22,167 nucleotides of DNA from a virus. Made by a program: the position numbers and the translations under genes. The notes beneath the pieces are model-generated. The model was given only the letters and a program-made list of their open reading frames with translations, was not told the origin of the DNA and ran no database searches. How positions within the stretch are numbered: position 1 is the first letter of the stretch; every line of letters begins with the position of its first letter. Location of the stretch: positions 1 to 22,167 of IMG/VR virus record IMGVR_UViG_3300027773_000206. One strand, written 5' to 3'. This document shows positions 9,082 through 22,167 of the stretch, piece by piece.

Positions 9082-9588
9082 CTACGTTTCATCGTAGGGT
9101 AAGATATTCACGTAAATGACCAGTTCGCGCTTGACGACCGTGAGGCCGGGCGCAATCGAACTATCCAGCATGCCATGATAGCCGCTAAGCGTCAGTTTTG
9201 GGACGCTGGTCGCATGTTCGACGCCGTTCACGACCAGTGCCTCATTCTTGCCGACATTGCTTTTCATGATCTCCAAGTCCGCCGCTATCGCGTCTCGAAT
9301 AGCCTTGATCGTGTTGGGTTGCGTGTCCCAGCGGTCGCAATATTCCGCGTGAAACTGCGCTCCCCCGTCATAACTCAGTTGCGAGTTGCGCGTGTAACTC
9401 TGCGTATCGGCGTACAACTGCAAGGCCGGAAACGCCCCCTGTGCCATACTGAAGTCATCCTGGATGTAGACCGTGCTGCCATACGGCGCCGTCGGCGTGA
9501 TCGGATTGAGCGCCAGCAGTCGCGTCCCAACGGGCAAGATCGCCGCCAGTGCTTGCAGGATGACAAGATCAGTATTCGGGTTTGCCAT
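9082..9588 (-). CDS. Tail terminator / tail completion protein candidate
   Basis: A 168-residue protein beginning MANPNTDLVILQALAAILP, with a central beta segment (ALQLYADTQSYTRNSQLSYDG), a helix (TIKAIRDAIAADLEIMKS) and a C-terminal beta strand with KRELVIYVNILPYDE. Size, alternating helix/strand pattern and location between the HK97 gp10-like gene and the tail tube gene fit the tail terminator slot (the gpU-like ring that caps the tube). ATG at 9588 follows GGGGTG at about 8 nt, and only 3 bp separate it from the preceding stop, so translation is probably coupled. No sequence motif proves the function. Confidence 0.6.
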   Translation of the reverse strand: MANPNTDLVILQALAAILPVGTRLLALNPITPTAPYGSTVYIQDDFSMAQGAFPALQLYADTQSYTRNSQLSYDGGAQFHAEYCDRWDTQPNTIKAIRDAIAADLEIMKSNVGKNEALVVNGVEHATSVPKLTLSGYHGMLDSSIAPGLTVVKRELVIYVNILPYDET

Positions 9589-10690: not shown

Positions 10691-11617
10691 CTACGCTGCC
10701 GCAATCGGCAAATAGTATGAGAGCTTTTGTTCCGCCGCCGTACACAAGGCCGTCACCCCTGCCGTATCGCGGGTCAGGTTGCGTTTCAACTGCTGTTCGC
10801 CACTGCGAATCAAGTCCAGTCCTTGCGCCCCCATCTTGTTGAGCGCCCGTTGCCCAAGCAGCCAGCTTGTCTGGTAGACCGTCGCATCACGTACTGCATC
10901 AGGGATGGTGTAGCAGTAGTCCGCCGTGATCACATCCGTACTCAGATTGGCACTGCTAAAGGTGACCATGCCCTCTGTGTAGTTGATCGTGAAACCACTG
11001 GACTGCACGACCCCATTCTTGTAGATGACCGGCGGGATAGCGGGTAGCGTATTCGGTTGAATGCTTGGCGCTTGCGTATAGGACGAGGCCCAGAAGCCGC
11101 GCTGCGCGTAGTACGTCGTGTTGCTGCTATCGGCTTGTAGGAGCGTCTCGCCCGTTACGGCTAAGAAATAGCCTGCCTCGTAGTCCAGTTGCACAATCGG
11201 CGGCCTTAGCCCAAGTTGCACCAGGACAGGCGCGAGGCTGTAGGTGATGCTTTGCAGCGGCACGATCTCAAGATAGTTGTCAAAGGTGTTATAGGCCACG
11301 TCGTTATTGTTGATGGTTGCCATGAAGCCCGCGCCACTGGTCGAGAGGTTGCTGACCTGGATTTGATAGCGCAAGGCACGGCGCACGGGTACCGGAAAGT
11401 TCGGGATTTTCGTGCGCATGGTTTTCGCGTCCCACTGGTGCTGTACCCACCCTACATGTGGCTCAAAACCTGATAGCCTCAGATCAAAGCCCATCGCATC
11501 ATCGATGTCTGACTCCGCACGGGCAATCGTACGGGCAAGCAGGAAGTCAGTGATGTCATTGGTCAGGTTGAAATCATCGAAGGCGCGATATTGCGCCACC
11601 GAAAGATACTTTGGCAT
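10691..11617 (-). CDS. Head-tail adaptor (connector) protein candidate
   Basis: A 308-residue protein. The N-terminal helix-rich part (YLSVAQYRAFDDFNLTNDITDFLLARTIARAESDIDD, about residues 4-40) and the C-terminal helices (AVRDATVYQTSWLLGQRALNKMGAQ and following) match the helical pattern of head-tail adaptors such as HK97 gp6 and SPP1 gp15, where residues from both ends form the bundle under the portal. Between them, residues about 60-235 are beta-rich and much longer than in classical adaptors (about 100-120 residues), so this is an expanded version. ATG at 11617 has GGAGGAGG about 10 nt upstream. It is the first gene after the large intergenic hairpin and is followed by the closure candidate. 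Confidence 0.65.
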   Translation of the reverse strand: MPKYLSVAQYRAFDDFNLTNDITDFLLARTIARAESDIDDAMGFDLRLSGFEPHVGWVQHQWDAKTMRTKIPNFPVPVRRALRYQIQVSNLSTSGAGFMATINNNDVAYNTFDNYLEIVPLQSITYSLAPVLVQLGLRPPIVQLDYEAGYFLAVTGETLLQADSSNTTYYAQRGFWASSYTQAPSIQPNTLPAIPPVIYKNGVVQSSGFTINYTEGMVTFSSANLSTDVITADYCYTIPDAVRDATVYQTSWLLGQRALNKMGAQGLDLIRSGEQQLKRNLTRDTAGVTALCTAAEQKLSYYLPIAAA

Positions 11618-11652
11618 CTCCTACTTCCTCCTCCCTGTCCACTTCGTTTCGT

Positions 11653-11740
11653 AAGGCGACGGGACGGCTTGATCTTCCCCCAACACGCACCACTGCACAC
11701 ACACACCACGAGGCAAGCCGCCCGTCCTGTTCGTCGCCTT
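11653..11740 (-). other. Large bulged inverted repeat between two head genes
   Basis: AAGGCGACG (11653-11661), GGACGG (11662-11667) and CTTG (11668-11671) form one continuous arm. The other arm has CAAG (11714-11717), CCGTCC (11722-11727) and CGTCGCCTT (11732-11740), separated by two 4-nt bulges. This gives 19 base pairs around a 42-nt loop with a CA-rich run. It begins 5 nt after the stop of the upstream gene in transcription order. No T-run follows on the minus strand, so it is not a standard intrinsic terminator; an RNA processing site, a stability element or a partial transcription barrier are possible. Confidence 0.7.
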
Positions 11741-11745
11741 TCCGC

Positions 11746-12288
11746 TTACGCTGCCGCCTGATCCAGATACGTCAGGGTGTAGTCCCCTGGCGTGCCTGTG
11801 AGCGAATAGAACAACCCAGCATCACAACTACAGTCAAAGGGGATAGCCTGCCCTGCTGAAAATCCACTCAGCACCGCGAAGGCCGCGCCCGCCTTGGGCA
11901 GCGTGTTCGGAGAACCGTTGTACAGCGTGATGCTTACACTCGTTCCAGGCTGATTGATCACCAACTTGCCGAGAAACGTGCCACTCATCGAGGTGATGGT
12001 GTACGCCCCTGAGTGGTTGTTGACAAAGGTGGCGGTAAAGGTCGTACTTGTCGTTGCAGTCACAACCACCGTCTCTGCCGTTCCTGTCCCATTGGCGAAG
12101 TTGAGCTTTTGCCCCACGTAGATACCATTCATCGAGGCAGGGGTCACCACGACGTTACTGCCTGCGGTGATGGTGGTCGAACTGGTCGTATTGACACAGT
12201 TGCCCACTGGCACAAGCGTGCCTGTCGCCGTGATATGCAGCGGGGTATATTCGGGTACCGGCGCGTAGCGCGTATGGCGCTGTGGCAT
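11746..12288 (-). CDS. Head accessory or decoration protein with beta insert
   Basis: An unrecognised 180-residue protein. After a short N-terminus (MPQRHTRYAPVPEYTPL), residues about 35-105 form a Thr/Val-rich module with SNVVVTPASMNGIYVGQKL, TAETVVVTATTSTTFTATF and NNHSG; the same module occurs in the next gene upstream. The C-terminal part (LVINQPGTSVSITLYNGSP, FDCSCDAGLFYSLTGTPGDYTLTY) resembles short beta proteins that sit on capsid or tail surfaces. ATG at 12288 follows a GGGGAG sequence by 6-7 nt. It lies between the capsid gene and the neck genes, which suggests a virion surface or head decoration role. No catalytic motif is visible. Confidence 0.7.
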   Translation of the reverse strand: MPQRHTRYAPVPEYTPLHITATGTLVPVGNCVNTTSSTTITAGSNVVVTPASMNGIYVGQKLNFANGTGTAETVVVTATTSTTFTATFVNNHSGAYTITSMSGTFLGKLVINQPGTSVSITLYNGSPNTLPKAGAAFAVLSGFSAGQAIPFDCSCDAGLFYSLTGTPGDYTLTYLDQAAA

Positions 12289-13594: not shown

Positions 13595-14284
13595 TTAGGA
13601 GGATTTCTTGAAACGTCCTTGCTCGTCATGAGGACGTTGGTTATAGTTTTTGTATAAACCTTGCTCAAACTTTCGTCGCTTAGTCTCAGAGATTTTATCC
13701 TTGACCCATTGTGGACGCTCTTTGCCACGAGTAACTAGTACTGATGCAGCGGTGGCCTTCGTTGGCTCACAGCCTTTCTTTGCGGCACTCATCTTAGCAC
13801 GGGTTGCGTCCGATGGATTAGACTTAGCTATTCGGATATTCTCACGCCATTCTTCAGAAAACGTCATACCTAGCCTTGCCTGACGTAACAATTCCTTTGT
13901 TGCTGGCGTACGCTTTAGTCCCGTTACCCTGGTTTTCATTTTCTCAACACTTTCGGGCCGAGGATGATAACCAGTGTTATTCTGAGCAATAGGACGAACG
14001 TTATAAACAGGTTTCAGGGTATCAATGTAGTACTGTTCGCGTTCTTCGAGAGCTTTCTTAAGGGCCTGTACATCTTCCAGAAGCTCAAATAGTTCGATTT
14101 CAACGAACTCAAAAGCCTCTTCACCGTACTTTGCCCAAGCGTTCAATAGTACAGGGTTTTCGCGTACACCTTTACGTAGATTATGTCGATGTGTCCACCA
14201 TCTACCCCGTAAGTCTCTTGTCGAACCTACGTACATATGTCCATTGACCTTATTAACGATAGCATAGATGCCAGGTTGCTTCAT
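13595..14284 (-). CDS. GIY-YIG homing endonuclease (gene 2)
   Basis: A 229-residue homing endonuclease. GIYAIVN and MYVGS form the GIY-YIG core within the first 20 residues, followed by the Arg-containing DLRGRWWTHRHNL segment, the catalytic Glu region (EEREQYYIDTLKP) and VYNVRP. Residues about 105-220 contain Lys-rich NUMOD3-like units (RPESVEKMKTRVTG, ATRAKMSAAKKG, WVKDKISETKRRK). Unlike the other two endonuclease genes it is on the same strand as the virion genes and is inserted directly after the capsid stop. ATG at 14284 is 6-7 nt after GAGGGAG, which itself lies in a hairpin loop. It is clearly AT-richer than the neighbours. The two GIY-YIG proteins share the core motifs but differ strongly elsewhere, so they are not a recent duplication. 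Confidence 0.92.
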   Translation of the reverse strand: MKQPGIYAIVNKVNGHMYVGSTRDLRGRWWTHRHNLRKGVRENPVLLNAWAKYGEEAFEFVEIELFELLEDVQALKKALEEREQYYIDTLKPVYNVRPIAQNNTGYHPRPESVEKMKTRVTGLKRTPATKELLRQARLGMTFSEEWRENIRIAKSNPSDATRAKMSAAKKGCEPTKATAASVLVTRGKERPQWVKDKISETKRRKFEQGLYKNYNQRPHDEQGRFKKSS

Positions 14285-14318
14285 GTCTAACTCCCTCTGT
14301 TAGTTCCCTATTGCGGTT

Positions 14319-15390: not shown

Positions 15391-15481
15391 CATTGTTGTT
15401 ACTCACTCTTACGAGTGGGTGAGGTCATTTCTGCCTCACTCTTATAGTTCCCTATAAGATCGGACTATAGCATCATCCTGT

Positions 15482-15510
15482 TTTACGTGACTGAAAAAGA
15501 ATGATAGAAT
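15482..15510 (+). promoter_or_regulatory. Promoter of the intron-encoded HNH gene
   Basis: TTTACG (15482-15487) and TAGAAT (15505-15510) are separated by 17 bp, 4 of 6 and 5 of 6 to consensus. The site lies in the P8 loop of the intron and drives the plus strand, so the endonuclease does not depend on the capsid transcript. Confidence 0.55.
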
Positions 15511-15536
15511 GAATAGGGCTTGAAGCTGCCTGATCA

Positions 15537-15565
15537 GCGGCTTGACGAGCGGTTTTCCGAGCCGC
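15537..15565 (+). promoter_or_regulatory. Leader hairpin of the HNH gene
   Basis: GCGGCT (15537-15542) pairs with AGCCGC (15560-15565), and CGG/CCG (15550-15552 with 15557-15559) forms an inner stem with a TTTT loop. It lies between the promoter and the start codon and resembles the structured leaders of the two GIY-YIG genes in position. Confidence 0.45.
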
Positions 15566-15609
15566 GCCCATCCAACATCGGAAGTAGCACTATCGGAGGT
15601 GTTTTTCTT

Positions 15610-16398
15610 ATGGGCAAACCATGTCCTGACCCATCTATTCTCACGAGAGAGTTCCTCTACAATGCCTACCGTGTTGAAGGTCGTACCGTTCTTCAAATTG
15701 CTCGTTCGGTCAAGTGCCGTAACGGGACCGTTATCAGATTGCTGCAAGAGTATGGGCTTTCTCAGAATGTAACCAAAGAGTGGCTGATTGAACACTATGT
15801 CACTCTTCAGGAGACCACTGATGATATGGCAGTACAACTCGGCTGCTCTGAGGGAAACGTTCGGGCCTATCTTCGCAAGTTCAAGATACCTATCAAGAAG
15901 CGAGGGAAGATAAACATTCCTCAGTTGAGCAATCGAACTTGGCTGTATGAACAATACGTCACGCTTGGTTTTTCGACGTGCAAGATTGCTGATGATCTGA
16001 ATGTTGCCGTTTCCAGTGTTCAGAGTGCGCTTAACCGCTTGAACATTCCTTTGCGTCCTGTAGGAACGATGTCTCCCACCGGGAAGAAGCACTCCTATCG
16101 TCGCAATTTTTCTCATCGTAAACGCCGCCTCATCTACCAACGTGATAATCATACCTGTCAATGGCCTGGATGTGGTTCTACCTCAAATCTTGATGTTCAC
16201 CACATCATTGCTGCTAGAAAGCTTGGGAATACCGATCTTGATAACGGTATCACCCTTTGCGAACACTGCCATGTGAAAACGTATGGCAGGGAAGAGGAGT
16301 TTGCTCCTCTGTTTCAAACTATCATTTCACTCAAGAAATCAGGAGCCGCTCACTTAGTCTCTACGCCTATTCAATTAAGGATGTTTTGCAATCCTTAA
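15610..16398 (+). CDS. HNH homing endonuclease, antisense in the group I intron
   Basis: A 262-residue endonuclease that should cut the intron-free capsid gene and so spread the intron. The C-terminal nuclease (residues about 180-235) has DNHTCQWPGCG, then LDVHHIIAARKLGN, DNGITLCEHCH: the paired cysteines bind zinc, HH and the later N and H are the HNH catalytic residues. The N-terminal part has three helix-turn-helix-like repeats (about 12-50, 54-95 and 110-150) with the pattern W/FLxxxY..G.T..xIA..L.....V...L, likely used to read the target. ATG at 15610 follows CGGAGGTG by 8 nt; an in-frame TTG at 15520 is rejected. The gene is on the strand opposite to the capsid gene, inside P8, and its last 50 bp are antisense to P3', P7, and P6. 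The stop codon lies in the P6 hairpin. Confidence 0.93.
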   Translation: MGKPCPDPSILTREFLYNAYRVEGRTVLQIARSVKCRNGTVIRLLQEYGLSQNVTKEWLIEHYVTLQETTDDMAVQLGCSEGNVRAYLRKFKIPIKKRGKINIPQLSNRTWLYEQYVTLGFSTCKIADDLNVAVSSVQSALNRLNIPLRPVGTMSPTGKKHSYRRNFSHRKRRLIYQRDNHTCQWPGCGSTSNLDVHHIIAARKLGNTDLDNGITLCEHCHVKTYGREEEFAPLFQTIISLKKSGAAHLVSTPIQLRMFCNP

Positions 16399-16506
16399 TC
16401 ACTTGGCTCGGTGTTGTCCACTACTCATTTCCGTAAGTGTTGGGAGTTTCACCGACTTCAGAGCGGTTTGCTCTGGCAATTACTCACCAGAGGCGCAGTT
16501 TTGTTT

Positions 16507-16816
16507 ACGCATAGATCAAAGGTTCCAGGTCCTGGCGAACCAGCACGGAGCCGCCTGATGTGCCACCACCGGTTGAGTCCAGGATGGATTTGCGGGTGAG
16601 TTGCTCGCCGATGCCAGTATCGAGAATACCACCAATGACCTCTTTGGTGACGTCACCGACGTTCTCAGGACGGGGCTGGCTCGCTTGATAGAGCAGGGCG
16701 TCCCGAAGCTGGTTGGTGCTCATGGGAAGGTATTCGTTGTAAATGAGGCGCTGCCGCTTCTTGCGGTATTGCGCGTCTTTGGGGTTAAAGCTGACGCTTG
16801 AGGTAAGTGTTTCCAC
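16507..16816 (-). CDS. Major capsid protein, exon 1
   Basis: The 5' exon encodes the first 103 residues and the first base of codon 104. It contains FNPKDAQYRKKRQRLIYNE, a helical N-arm, a linker with SILDSTGGGTSGGS and then VLVRQDLEPLIYA, a motif typical of the start of HK97-fold shell domains. An unspliced message stops at once, since the stop TAA is formed by the last exon base and the first two intron bases. After splicing the sequence reads LEPLIYALYVKNFPAFER with no break. The start is GTG at 16816, 11 nt after GGAG; no better start exists before the next upstream stop. A standalone 103-residue protein is unlikely to be functional. Confidence 0.88.
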
Positions 16817-17060
16817 TCTGCCACGTTCTCCACTTCTTCATCATCATCTACCGTGCCGTGGCTTGCATCGCTCTCGTCTCAACTAGAGGGTAGTCGGAGA
16901 CCTCTGGCTTCTCGCATGCTGCACACTGAGGGTGTTCACTTGTTCATGAATGGTTCGTGAAGTGGCTGGTGTGTGTCTACTCTGATCGTTACGGATATAG
17001 ATGGGTGGGATAGAAATCGAAAGGATGAAGGGCATGTCCACACCAACCACCACACGTTCT
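16817..17060 (-). other. Long untranslated leader of the capsid transcript
   Basis: This 244-bp stretch has no gene on either strand that I can support. It would be the 5' leader if transcription starts near 17061. An 11-bp inverted repeat (TCTCAACTAGA at 16877-16887 and its complement at 17058-17068) brackets most of it, and an imperfect hairpin with CACTT/AAGTG ends lies around 16937-16964. Length and repeats suggest cis regulation of capsid synthesis; no known riboswitch is recognised. Confidence 0.4.
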
Positions 17061-17067
17061 AGTTGAG

Positions 17068-17097
17068 ATTATAGCATAAGCACATTGAAATTTGCAA
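17068..17097 (-). promoter_or_regulatory. Promoter of the capsid operon
   Basis: TTGCAA (17097-17092) and TATAAT (17073-17068) are separated by 18 bp, 4 of 6 and 6 of 6 matches. It reads towards the capsid gene and could drive the whole head and tail operon. Confidence 0.6.
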
Positions 17098-18271: not shown

Positions 18272-18448
18272 TTACCCTTCGTTCACTTCCCAACCAATCC
18301 TGACTATCACTTTCCACAAGGCAGGGCTTGCCTCACACCACTGCTTGATTTGCTCAAGATGCACTTCGTCTTCCCTAGAAAGCCTCTCGTGCAGCGACTC
18401 AATCGCGGCTTGTGCCTGAGTAATCCAGAAGTCTACGTCTTCGGTCAT
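18272..18448 (-). CDS. Hypothetical 58-residue protein
   Basis: A short gene that is easy to miss. The translation begins MTEDVDFWITQAQAAIESLH and continues with a charged helix, then QWCEASPALWKVIVRIGWE and ends VNEG. Support comes from junctions: its ATG at 18448 overlaps the upstream stop as ATGA, and its stop TAA is followed immediately by the next ATG. The codon use is similar to that of the neighbours. Two amphipathic helices are suggested. Function unknown. Confidence 0.72.
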   Translation of the reverse strand: MTEDVDFWITQAQAAIESLHERLSREDEVHLEQIKQWCEASPALWKVIVRIGWEVNEG

Positions 18449-18675
18449 TCTGCTTCTCCTAGCAATCGCGCCGGATCGTCGATAACCGGTGAGACGCTGC
18501 CTTCTACCGTCTTTTCATCGAACCCAAGTTCCTGAAATGAAATACCAAAGATGTTGCAAATGCGTGACGCGATGTATTGCTGTGTCTTGACGAACTGCTC
18601 ATCCTGCTTGCTTACAGGAATATCTAGCCACGTGAAGTCACCAGCATAGAGCCATTCAGGTCGCTCATTTTCCAT
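18445..18675 (-). CDS. Hypothetical 76-residue protein
   Basis: Begins MENERPEWLYAGDFTWLDIP and ends SPVIDDPARLLGEAE. The middle (VKTQQYIASRICNIFGISFQELGF) is helical and has a weak similarity in rhythm to portal-type segments (isRicniFgi), where phage portal proteins have a conserved arginine-phenylalanine helix; the end, however, does not support a portal. The ATG at 18675 overlaps the preceding gene by 11 nt and the stop overlaps the next start as ATGA. It could be a truncated or relict portal-like piece or an unrelated small protein. Confidence 0.68.
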   Translation of the reverse strand: MENERPEWLYAGDFTWLDIPVSKQDEQFVKTQQYIASRICNIFGISFQELGFDEKTVEGSVSPVIDDPARLLGEAE

Positions 18676-18997
18676 ATTTCACCCACTCAGGCTGTTCTTT
18701 GGCAAAGCGTTCGCAATGTTGCCAGGCATAGGTATACCATGTCTCCCATTTGCCACCAGGAAACGCTGCCGCAAGTACGGTCTCATTCTCAGTCCAACGC
18801 ATCAGCCACTGGCATTGGGCATACGTGAGACTGATACCAGCCTGGATAGCCTGCTCAATATCACGATAATCCTGGTAATCATAGTCCTTCCATCCAGGAA
18901 CCTCAAGCAGTGGTTCGGTCTTGGAAGCGTCAGCCTGCTGTGAGGATGGAGAGGGAGAAGAAGGAGGAAAATAGAAATACTGAGAACTTGCGTACAT
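18665..18997 (-). CDS. Hypothetical protein, first gene of the small cluster
   Basis: A 110-residue protein. After MYASSQYFYFPPSSPSPSSQ the sequence is low-complexity (Ser/Pro), then a helical, aromatic part (DIEQAIQAGISLTYAQCQWLMRWTE, WETWYTYAWQHCERFAKEQPEW). ATG at 18997 follows GGAGG by 6 nt, the best ribosome site of the cluster; a longer frame to 19054 lies in the terminator and promoter region and is rejected. It heads five genes that overlap or touch each other and would be transcribed from the extended -10 promoter just upstream. Not recognised. Confidence 0.7.
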   Translation of the reverse strand: MYASSQYFYFPPSSPSPSSQQADASKTEPLLEVPGWKDYDYQDYRDIEQAIQAGISLTYAQCQWLMRWTENETVLAAAFPGGKWETWYTYAWQHCERFAKEQPEWVKYGK

Positions 18998-19023
18998 CCC
19001 CAACCTCCTTTGTTTTTCTGTAG

Positions 19024-19032
19024 AGTATACCA
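19024..19032 (-). promoter_or_regulatory. Extended -10 promoter of the small-gene cluster
   Basis: TGGTATACT (19032-19024) is an extended -10 element (TGN plus TATACT). No good -35 is visible; that region is the terminator stem. It lies about 30 bp before the first gene of the cluster. Confidence 0.45.
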
Positions 19033-19039
19033 TACAAGC

Positions 19040-19066
19040 AAAAACCTCTACCATCGCTGATAGAGG
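19040..19066 (-). terminator. Intrinsic terminator of the ncRNA unit
   Basis: On the minus strand CCTCTATCA (19066-19058) pairs with TGGTAGAGG (19053-19045) around a GCGA tetraloop, 9 bp with one G-U, followed at once by TTTTT (19044-19040). Its shape is that of a strong rho-independent terminator for transcripts coming from the right. Confidence 0.85.
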
Positions 19067-19416
19067 CTCTGCTAGTGTCTTTGCTCTCCCTTAGTGCTCG
19101 CTCCGGCTACAAGCCATCAACACGGATGTTAGTCCAGCGGGATACCAAGCCCTACATTTCCCTAATAAGCGGGAATTGTATCAAAGCACGAAGGAAGGAG
19201 TTGCACCTTCCATACTCACCTGTCTGGATAGTGGCAAGCAGAGCGCAGGCAGTGATCTCCCGTTCTTGTGTCTACCTTTTCCACCATTCGTGCTACGGAC
19301 TATTGGTTTTTCGTCTTTGAGTCCGTGTCCCGACTAGTTACGGATTCGCCCCCTGTATCCCGTATCGCGGATGTCCGTGGTCAGCCACAGCTATTAAGGG
19401 AGCCATCACTCAACCT
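19067..19416 (-). ncRNA. Structured non-coding RNA candidate
   Basis: This gene-free interval between the protease gene and the small cluster shows a complete RNA unit: promoter at 19445-19417, a folded body and the terminator. CTCCCTTA near the 5' end (19402-19395) pairs perfectly with TAAGGGAG near the 3' end (19093-19086). Inside are further helices: a GTGG/CCAC hairpin, TACGG-AT/ATCCGTA with one bulge, ACGGACT/AGTCCGT (7 bp), GCACGAA/TTCGTGC (7 bp, 19293-19186) with an inner GGAAGG/CCTTCC hairpin, TTCCC/GGGAA, and GGCT/AGCC. No long reading frame with a ribosome site runs through it. I do not recognise a known RNA family. It is unusual in the middle of a head module. Confidence 0.65.
19186..19293 (-). 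ncRNA. tRNA-Leu-like domain inside the ncRNA
   Basis: The 108-nt domain is closed by a 7-bp acceptor-like stem GCACGAA/TTCGTGC. The 5' side continues TGGTGGAAAAGGTAGACAC, which has the D-arm pattern of bacterial tRNA-Leu. Next to the 3' acceptor strand is a T-arm-like hairpin GGAAGG/CCTTCC with a 7-nt loop TGCAACT. But the middle (about 56 nt) has no normal anticodon arm and is about 20 nt too long. It may be a tRNA mimic or a decayed tRNA gene, not a standard tRNA. Confidence 0.45.
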
Positions 19417-19445
19417 AGTATAGCATACCGCTTACCGTACCTCAA
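19417..19445 (-). promoter_or_regulatory. Promoter of the ncRNA unit
   Basis: TTGAGG (19445-19440) and TATACT (19422-19417) are separated by 17 bp, and TGC before TATACT makes an extended -10. The -35 box is inside the last codons of the protease gene. Transcription would begin near 19410, just before the 5' arm of the long-range helix. Confidence 0.6.
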
Positions 19446-22167
19446 CCGGATCGTCGATAAGTGGTACCATTGCAAATCCCAAATCTTGATACGCCAGAAT
19501 ATGATCGGGCCGCATCATGCTCTTCTGGTCGCTAGTAAGTGGCGGTCGCACTCCCTTACCAACGCCTGCTTCCCAAATGCGATAGCCCTTCTCGACTCGT
19601 GTTTGTGCTAAGGCATCGGCAAGCGTCCCATTGCTACTCGTCCCATTCACTGAGAGCAGGTCTTCATAGCTTGCAATGTTGGTCTCGCCACCCTCACGCA
19701 CAAAAGATGGTTGCACGGTACGGGTCAGGGTCGTCGGACGACCGACCGGCATGTTCTTGAGCTTCCCTAACTGCTCCGCCACGGCCTGTTGTTCTTCTTG
19801 CAGGGCCAGCAGTTGCTTTCTGTGCTGTGCCAGGGCTTCACCGACGGCTTTACTCACCGCGCCATCCACAGCAGATTTGACATTGAAGCTCTCGAATGCC
19901 TTTGCCAGATTGTCCAGTGAGGCAAGGCCCGCCACTGTGTTGTAGCCCTGTCCCTGTCCCATCTGCCGTGCTTCCTCTTGCGCATCAGCCACCGTCTTGC
20001 CATCGGATTGATGTTGCGTGCCGTCGCCATGTATCCCCTTCGTGCATTTGCAAGCGTCGGGATGCAACGAGGCAATCATATCGTGAATCATGACGCTGTG
20101 GTCATGAACCATGCCAAGAGTAAGCGCATTCTTAGCAGAGATTTCACGCCCATCTTTAGTGGTGATGCCAGCATCTGAGAGACTGTAGTAGCCAGAAGGC
20201 GCAGAGACTGCATCGCCATCGTTGGTATCAGGTACTCCTAACATGCTCATCAGTTGATCGACGTAGGAGTCAGTCCGCTGCGCCATCAGTACCATCGCAT
20301 CAGAGCAATCATCCAGGGCTGATAAGACCGAACGGGCAATGGCGGCGTCCCCTTCAGAGTCCACCAGACTGCACTTAGTGCGGTACTGCTCAATGGTGAG
20401 TTCCGCCAACCCTAAGTCCTTGTTGAGACTGTTGAGGAGCGAGAGTTTTGCCAGCGTGATCGGGTCTAATTCCTTCACCTCTTCAGCAGGGACTTCTTTG
20501 GTGACTGCTGTCTGCTCTGTCCCCTTTTCCTCAATCGTCTCTTCAACATGGCTATGAGCGGGACTCTCTTCATGTGCCTGTTCCTCACTGGCAACTTTGT
20601 CCACATGCTCTGTGGATTTTTCCACATCACTGTCATCGTGACTATGCCCGTGATCGGCATCCCCGTTATGCTCGTGTGAGTGGGTATGCATATCGTCATC
20701 GCCTTGTGAGCCTGCCGCCGTATGTGGATGCTCATGAACGCCTTTGCATGCAGCGTGCGTGCCATCACTCTTCACTTCTACGTCTTTCGCGTCCGGCATC
20801 GCTGCCTTTTCTTTGTCTTTCATGTCCTCGTCCTCCTCCACTTCTTCGCCCAAGTCCTGTCGAACGGGGGCACTACCACTGGTTGTCTCTAAGATACCTG
20901 CTGATTTCTCGTCCTTCTCCCAGGGTACTACCCAGGCGGGATCAGGCGAAAACTCGCTGTTTATTCTGCCGTACATGGTCTTGACTTTGGCTTTCATACC
21001 GTCCTGGTCATTTGCTGAAGCGCCAACGCCTCCGCGTCCTCCTGAGAGGACATTGGCACAGGCCCTCACCCCCAACGGTACGATCTTGGGAGAGCCATCA
21101 ACGATGTAGCAATAGGGGCACGAATAGCCGCTCTGCTTGTCGCTATTGTCAGGGTCACAATGTAAGAAACATTGTTTTGCCTTTGTCGCCACAATGTCAC
21201 CATCATCGTTACGTGCCCAATCGAAGATTTGCGATTCTGCACGGCTCCCTGTCCACTCAGTATCAAGAGCCATGAGCGGCCAGGATGTTTTGCCGGTCGC
21301 GGCTTTGGTGACTTCAGGCTCGCTGTGCTTCTGAAGGAGCGCCGCTGTTTCGTCACGGGTCAGGGATTTCTTGCGCTTGCCGTCGTCGAGGTAGAAGCCC
21401 TCTTCTCCATCGAAGGTGTACATGATACGCCCTCGTGGTGCCGTCCGTGACTTTACCAGCGTCAAATCTTTGCGGAGTCCTTCACTGGTGACATTATTGG
21501 TGACTGACTCGTAATCACGCGAAAAGAGGCTCTTGAAGGTAGGGGCAAGTTGCCGTACAGCATCACCATTCCCTTCAATCAGCAGCCGCCCGAAAAGACC
21601 TTTAATAGCATTTTCGACCCAACACCTCTGATTCGCGGGCACTGAGACCACCGACCATTCTACTACATATACGTGTTTTATATAAACAGCAGAATAGGGG
21701 TCTTCTGGATCAGCAAACTCCCAGTCCAATACTTGACAGCCAACGGAGCACCCTAAACGTAGTTTATCCTTCACGATATAGTTATAGGTCTTCTCCGCCG
21801 CTGGATTGGAGAGCACTACCTGAGCGGTCAACCAAAGATCGGCAATGCCCTTTTGCATTTGGATTGTTGGGGAGCCATAGAGACGGCCAAAAACCGCGTC
21901 TGGGAGGTCATATGTATGGTTGAGATATAAAAGTAGATCAGGACTAACTTGCGTCATATCCTGCAAGGCGGAGAGTGTCATGATATCCCCTTGCAAGTCC
22001 TTAACGGTTGAGGAGCCAACCATACGTACAATTGGCTTGCCTTGATCTTCTTCTGACAACTCCTTCTGTTCAGCCGGTATCATGGCCCCTGTATAGACAG
22101 CAAAGTCTATACCAGGATGCATTTTACGTGACTGTACATAACTCGGAGCGATGAGGGAATTGCTAGT
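19432..22167 (-). CDS. Prohead protease fused to scaffold-like region (5' partial)
   Basis: A very long protease protein, open to the right edge (15 more codons before the ATG at 22122; that ATG lacks a ribosome site, so the real start is probably outside). Numbering from it: residues 30-170 are a U35-type prohead protease, with catalytic His in NHTYD (H69), Ser in LRLGCSVGC (S126), and the conserved VEWSVVSVPAN (E155 region). Residues 285-395 hold a second domain with paired cysteines (CPYC) and PLGVRACANVLSGGRGG. Then come a disordered acidic stretch, a His-rich tract (456-525), a helical middle and a C-terminal coiled-coil (about 745-800) as in scaffolding proteins. It would guide shell assembly and then cleave itself and the scaffold. 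The length, 896+ residues, is three to four times that of HK97 gp4. Confidence 0.88.
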   Translation of the reverse strand, partial: TSNSLIAPSYVQSRKMHPGIDFAVYTGAMIPAEQKELSEEDQGKPIVRMVGSSTVKDLQGDIMTLSALQDMTQVSPDLLLYLNHTYDLPDAVFGRLYGSPTIQMQKGIADLWLTAQVVLSNPAAEKTYNYIVKDKLRLGCSVGCQVLDWEFADPEDPYSAVYIKHVYVVEWSVVSVPANQRCWVENAIKGLFGRLLIEGNGDAVRQLAPTFKSLFSRDYESVTNNVTSEGLRKDLTLVKSRTAPRGRIMYTFDGEEGFYLDDGKRKKSLTRDETAALLQKHSEPEVTKAATGKTSWPLMALDTEWTGSRAESQIFDWARNDDGDIVATKAKQCFLHCDPDNSDKQSGYSCPYCYIVDGSPKIVPLGVRACANVLSGGRGGVGASANDQDGMKAKVKTMYGRINSEFSPDPAWVVPWEKDEKSAGILETTSGSAPVRQDLGEEVEEDEDMKDKEKAAMPDAKDVEVKSDGTHAACKGVHEHPHTAAGSQGDDDMHTHSHEHNGDADHGHSHDDSDVEKSTEHVDKVASEEQAHEESPAHSHVEETIEEKGTEQTAVTKEVPAEEVKELDPITLAKLSLLNSLNKDLGLAELTIEQYRTKCSLVDSEGDAAIARSVLSALDDCSDAMVLMAQRTDSYVDQLMSMLGVPDTNDGDAVSAPSGYYSLSDAGITTKDGREISAKNALTLGMVHDHSVMIHDMIASLHPDACKCTKGIHGDGTQHQSDGKTVADAQEEARQMGQGQGYNTVAGLASLDNLAKAFESFNVKSAVDGAVSKAVGEALAQHRKQLLALQEEQQAVAEQLGKLKNMPVGRPTTLTRTVQPSFVREGGETNIASYEDLLSVNGTSSNGTLADALAQTRVEKGYRIWEAGVGKGVRPPLTSDQKSMMRPDHILAYQDLGFAMVPLIDDPVEVR

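Follow-up and report, generated by a model that had tools for sequence, protein, structure and literature searches.

Between the head maturation protease gene and the major capsid protein (MCP) gene of a phage, we find a gene-free stretch bounded by a promoter and an intrinsic terminator that both exceed chance expectation, that is, a stand-alone transcription unit. Comparison with related phages indicates that this unit is cargo of a variable accessory slot rather than a conserved RNA of the head or of packaging. We favor, with a probability of roughly 0.45, the reading that the stand-alone non-coding unit is lineage-specific cargo whose RNA, if functional, most likely acts late and in trans; its main rival is that the unit arose as a by-product of promoter duplication. 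The comparison also separates such cargo, which is absent from relatives, from the core of the module, represented by a different RNA element that precedes the MCP gene and carries compensatory changes.

The window, that is, the whole stretch of DNA that was analyzed, is an entire IMG/VR record of 22,167 bases, with nearly all genes on the minus strand. The protease gene (22122-19432) is followed by accessory frames and then by the split MCP gene (16816 to 14465), all on the minus strand, and downstream of the MCP lie further head and tail genes, including the tape measure. Relatives in IMG/VR have MCPs 36 to 71% identical to that of the window, and genomes in this phage group reach at least 122 kb. 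One distant MCP relative (38%) sits in a metagenome-assembled genome of the Chloroflexota (Anaerolinea), which suggests, without proving it, that the hosts of the group belong to the Chloroflexota.

Promoter, terminator and absence of a gene

The unit lies on the minus strand; the initial annotation, which proposed a complete non-coding transcription unit at this place, had left the strand unstated. Its predicted promoter (19417..19445) consists of a -35-like TTGAGG (19445-19440) and an extended -10, TATGCTATACT (19427-19417), laid out as TTGAGG, 17 nt, and TATACT preceded by TG. The window contains three copies of the 11-mer TATGNTATANT, before the unit RNA (19427), before the next open reading frame (19034; TATGGTATACT, 19024..19034, minus strand) and before the MCP leader (17078; TATGCTATAAT, 17068..17078, minus strand), against 0.02 copies expected, an expectation that is optimistic because the motif was written down after some of these sites had been seen. 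Independent support comes from the relatives, with a single copy upstream of the MCP in L012 and another in L017, and this recurrence upholds the proposal of an extended -10 promoter.

At the other end, the terminator (19040..19066, minus strand) combines a 9-bp stem and GCGA loop (19066-19045) with a run of five T's (19044-19040), reading CCTCTATCA-GCGA-TGGTAGAGG-TTTTT. A terminator of this strength is expected 0.005 times on both strands of the window and is observed once, so the GCGA-capped terminator described by the initial annotation is the sole such site on either strand. Since the second copy of the promoter motif follows it directly, the unit is delimited at either end. The predicted non-coding RNA is about 373 nt long (19038..19410, minus strand), its start being placed from the -10 element and its end from the T-run. 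Transcription of the unit, its start site, its timing and any action of its RNA are inferred.

The statement that no credible gene lies inside also stands: among minus-strand frames that begin with a start codon, the longest has 23 codons and no clear Shine-Dalgarno site, a plus-strand GTG frame of 81 amino acids has no relative, and a tblastx search for a decayed gene in the interval returned nothing credible. The unit lies outside the protease gene, as the protease C-terminus is intact in comparison with L010, and an intron in that gene is ruled out by its full length. The interval is likewise no group I intron (18900-19500 gives no Intron_gpI match, even with E values up to 10 allowed), contains no tRNA or tmRNA detectable by ARAGORN, and lacks the arrangement that would mark a type III toxin-antitoxin system, in which tandem RNA repeats precede a ToxN-like gene. 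Self-comparison of the window gave no long complementarity between the RNA and other parts of the window, so no target of the RNA is evident there.

Folding of the predicted RNA and searches for relatives

The ends of the predicted RNA can pair through the 8-bp helix proposed in the initial annotation, with CTCCCTTA (19395..19402) as the 5′ arm and TAAGGGAG (19086..19093) as the 3′ arm, both on the minus strand, at a pairing probability of 0.90; a helix as long arises between the same end segments in 21 of 1,000 dinucleotide shuffles (2.1%). The body between these arms is a different matter. Its fold has a z score of -1.2, with 34 of 300 shuffles equally stable, and of -1.9 in a second scan based on 24 shuffles, in which the group I intron stretch of the MCP gene reached -5.5; with the terminator included, the whole RNA has a z score of -2.0. 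A predicted internal domain (19185..19294, minus strand), closed by AGCACGA/TCGTGCT (probability 0.96) and holding three inner hairpin stems, does not differ significantly from shuffles when the RNA is assessed as a whole, and well-defined pairs are not in excess in the body. The RNA body thus does not show the stability above dinucleotide shuffles by which a structured non-coding RNA is recognized, and the structured RNA of the initial annotation is not confirmed as structured beyond chance. The six or more local helices cited in its favor are matched by random RNA of equal size; because both the fold of the body and its pair count resemble those of shuffles, they are no evidence of selected structure, and a structure no better than shuffles gives no positive indication that the RNA is under selection. 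For the interval 19070-19414, the plus strand has a lower folding z score (-3.2) than the signal-bearing minus strand (-1.9).

No homolog of the unit RNA turned up in INPHARED phages (blastn), in nine related records, in eight further relatives of the protease or in 400 Chloroflexota genomes, nor did an exact 18-base pattern reveal one in IMG/VR. The best matches of these searches, located upstream of a ribosomal-protein gene, inside a coding sequence and in an unrelated A-rich gene, were attributed to chance. A covariance search of the 600-base region against Rfam gave only two chance miRNA matches (E values of 4.7 and 8.1) and no family, in line with the earlier remark that pRNA, GOLLD and ROOL do not obviously match. 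Nor is the unit RNA a duplicate of the MCP leader: model R1, which scores 88 bits on the true leader, reaches at best 0.7 bits on the minus strand of the unit with filters off, showing that chance accounts for the suggestive places seen when MAFFT aligned the RNA to MCP leaders.

The protease-MCP slot and the origin of the unit

Behind the terminator lies an accessory open reading frame (18665..18997, minus strand) of 110 amino acids from the ATG behind AAAGGAGG, or 129 from the first ATG, which belongs to no known family and has no relatives in IMG/VR or INPHARED. It is followed by a 76-amino-acid frame (18445..18675, minus strand), a portal-like fragment that ends in an IDDP sequence resembling the protease tail. 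Two copies of a 15-bp direct repeat, CCGGATCGTCGATAA, at 18471..18485 and, within the 3′ end of the protease gene, at 19446..19460, flank the RNA unit, the 110-amino-acid frame and most of the portal fragment. One such repeat in DNA of this size is by itself not significant; together with the hybrid portal-like and protease-tail frame, it looks like a recombination scar, and the simplest reading is that the accessory DNA would have been inserted by illegitimate recombination.

Related phages organize this junction differently. In L012, 205 bp separate the protease stop from the MCP start and hold the MCP leader alone, with the MCP promoter directly after the protease stop, in the same place as the unit promoter in the window. 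The junction is similarly short in L041, L044, L046 and L047, and L048, L017 and G001 carry other accessory genes in the slot. Thus, of the proposed complete unit inside the head module, the promoter-to-terminator architecture without a gene stands, with signals beyond chance and no reading frame, and a conserved head function does not, the unit being absent from the junction of relatives. This absence without trace, an outcome named beforehand as telling, counts against a conserved head function and not against a lineage-specific RNA. It also disfavors the suggested role in packaging or assembly, which is unlikely because relatives do without the RNA. In G001 (L002 10782-13287), a GIY-YIG gene on the opposite strand (10913-11947) splits a head gene; the first ∼40 residues of that head gene occur twice, with one copy on each side of the insert.

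We propose that a copy of the promoter used by the phage for its own head genes drives transcription of the unit. As the unit uses this promoter class, the RNA would most likely be made together with the MCP and thus probably late, a timing read from the promoter. Transcription would then halt at the strong intrinsic terminator, ahead of an accessory gene with its own promoter, and the RNA, if functional, would most likely act in trans, late, in this phage lineage. The principal competitor, somewhat less probable but still a serious candidate, holds that the accessory insertion merely duplicated the head-gene promoter, leaving an RNA without a role and a terminator that insulates the accessory gene. 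The position of the L012 MCP promoter right after the protease stop, the portal fragment and repeat in the slot, an RNA body that folds no better than shuffles and the lack of the RNA in every relative examined all agree with such an origin. Yet, for a relic, the closed unit of 370 nt with its strong terminator looks tidy; a former gene or MCP leader has left no trace in it, and the helix between its ends is unusual to a moderate degree (2%).

Set against this trans-acting, lineage-specific RNA are three further explanations. The RNA lies directly upstream of the accessory gene, on the same strand, and ends in a terminator, as would a long regulatory leader whose conditional terminator allows read-through into the 110-amino-acid gene by attenuation or a riboswitch-like mechanism; moreover, the 8-nt AGCAGAGC (19073-19066) beside the terminator can pair with GCTCTGCT (19244-19237) inside the RNA. 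This pairing, however, reaches no further into the terminator stem than its base and would therefore make a poor anti-terminator, chance yields about three 8-bp inverted repeats per 600 bases, as seen, and a promoter of the accessory gene's own lies directly behind the terminator, so that we consider such a leader unlikely. More doubtful still is a large structured phage RNA of a class so far undescribed, made with the capsid protein, serving head assembly, packaging or host control and too rare or too fast-changing to appear in the collections searched. The neighborhood of capsid genes, the promoter shared with the MCP and the end-closing helix would suit this explanation, but the body is not structured beyond chance, Rfam gives no match and the RNA is missing from all related phages examined. 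Least probable is an origin from a mobile intron, of which a remnant would be left, or from a gene that has decayed: although mobile elements abound in the phage group (GIY-YIG genes and, in the MCP, a group I intron accompanied by an HNH gene), the interval has no group I match at E up to 10, tblastx shows no trace of a gene and the protease gene is uninterrupted.

Several known systems resemble the unit in part. Phage morons likewise bring a promoter and a terminator of their own, sit between conserved genes and are absent from relatives; they are normally protein genes, whereas the unit described here has none. The pRNA of phi29 is a phage RNA tied to head function, but the unit RNA has no Rfam match to it, and relatives of the window phage, in a group with genomes of up to at least 122 kb, make heads without the unit RNA. 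GOLLD, ROOL and OLE are longer than the unit RNA. These are ornate non-coding RNAs, of which GOLLD and ROOL occur in phages and prophages (PMC12286853), and they differ from the unit RNA, which has no covariance match and no significant fold. The closest known kind are the orphan non-coding transcripts of phage ICP1, abundant in RNA-seq data, the main one being about 800 nt long and located beside lysis genes (PMC7567579). Both cases are gene-free phage intervals that belong to no known family, although the ICP1 transcripts are known from RNA-seq and our unit from DNA signals alone, and the lengths differ (∼373 compared to ∼800 nt). Gene-free transcription units of phages are easily overlooked, few have a known role, and the one reported here has unusually clear boundaries.

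The MCP leader and mobile elements around the MCP gene

Our alignments indicate that the truly conserved RNA of the head module is the MCP leader, not the unit RNA. The leader (16840..16932, minus strand) reads GUGNRCAGC, a hairpin and RAGCCWCGRCAC, has helices that covary in relatives, lies outside the unit and is not homologous to its RNA. The motif scores 78.8 to 88.4 bits in the window and three relatives, the four sequences from which the model was built, with copies in L012 (9084-9177), L013 (9535-9625) and L017 (9581-9670, beside a weak second copy of 10.7 bits at 9509-9580). In the alignment of these four, 95.5% of cells pair, a level nowhere near reached by slid versions, and both partners are changed in 6 of the 17 pairs. 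Searching 2.9 million viral contigs with an IUPAC pattern of the motif matched only the three known relatives. Looser copies, all between protease and MCP, are found in L046 (13047-13138, 36.5 bits), L048 (13275-13398, 22.5 bits), L042 (12946-13025, 15.8 bits), L044 (from 11644) and, in tandem, L047 (from 11973 and 12070). When ten sequences are aligned, standard pairs make up 88.8% of cells in the basal helices, compared to at most 39% in slid versions. The leader corresponds to no Rfam family, and a 26-bit match of its model in a bacterial genome, antisense within a regulator gene, was judged to be chance. As its CCAC/CCUC could pair with the ribosome site of the MCP, a natural hypothesis is that the leader is possibly a translational operator of the MCP, and it could thereby control the most abundant protein of the phage.

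The MCP gene itself carries insertions in several of these phages. In the window, it is interrupted by a group I intron (15441-16516, minus strand; 43 bits, just under the gathering score), opposite which lies an HNH endonuclease gene (15520-16398, plus strand). It is also interrupted in L041 (Intron_gpI, 52.8 bits), L044 and L046, and apparently in L043, where an HNH-like frame runs antisense. In L012, nothing is inserted at the position downstream of the MCP where the window carries a match to the int-alpA RNA (RF02996; 14306-14382, minus strand; 37.8 bits compared to a gathering score of 35.8), located between the MCP and a GIY-YIG endonuclease gene (13595-14284). The 3′ flank of this int-alpA match (14281-14311) and the 3′ end of the MCP intron (15425-15455) share 81% identity.
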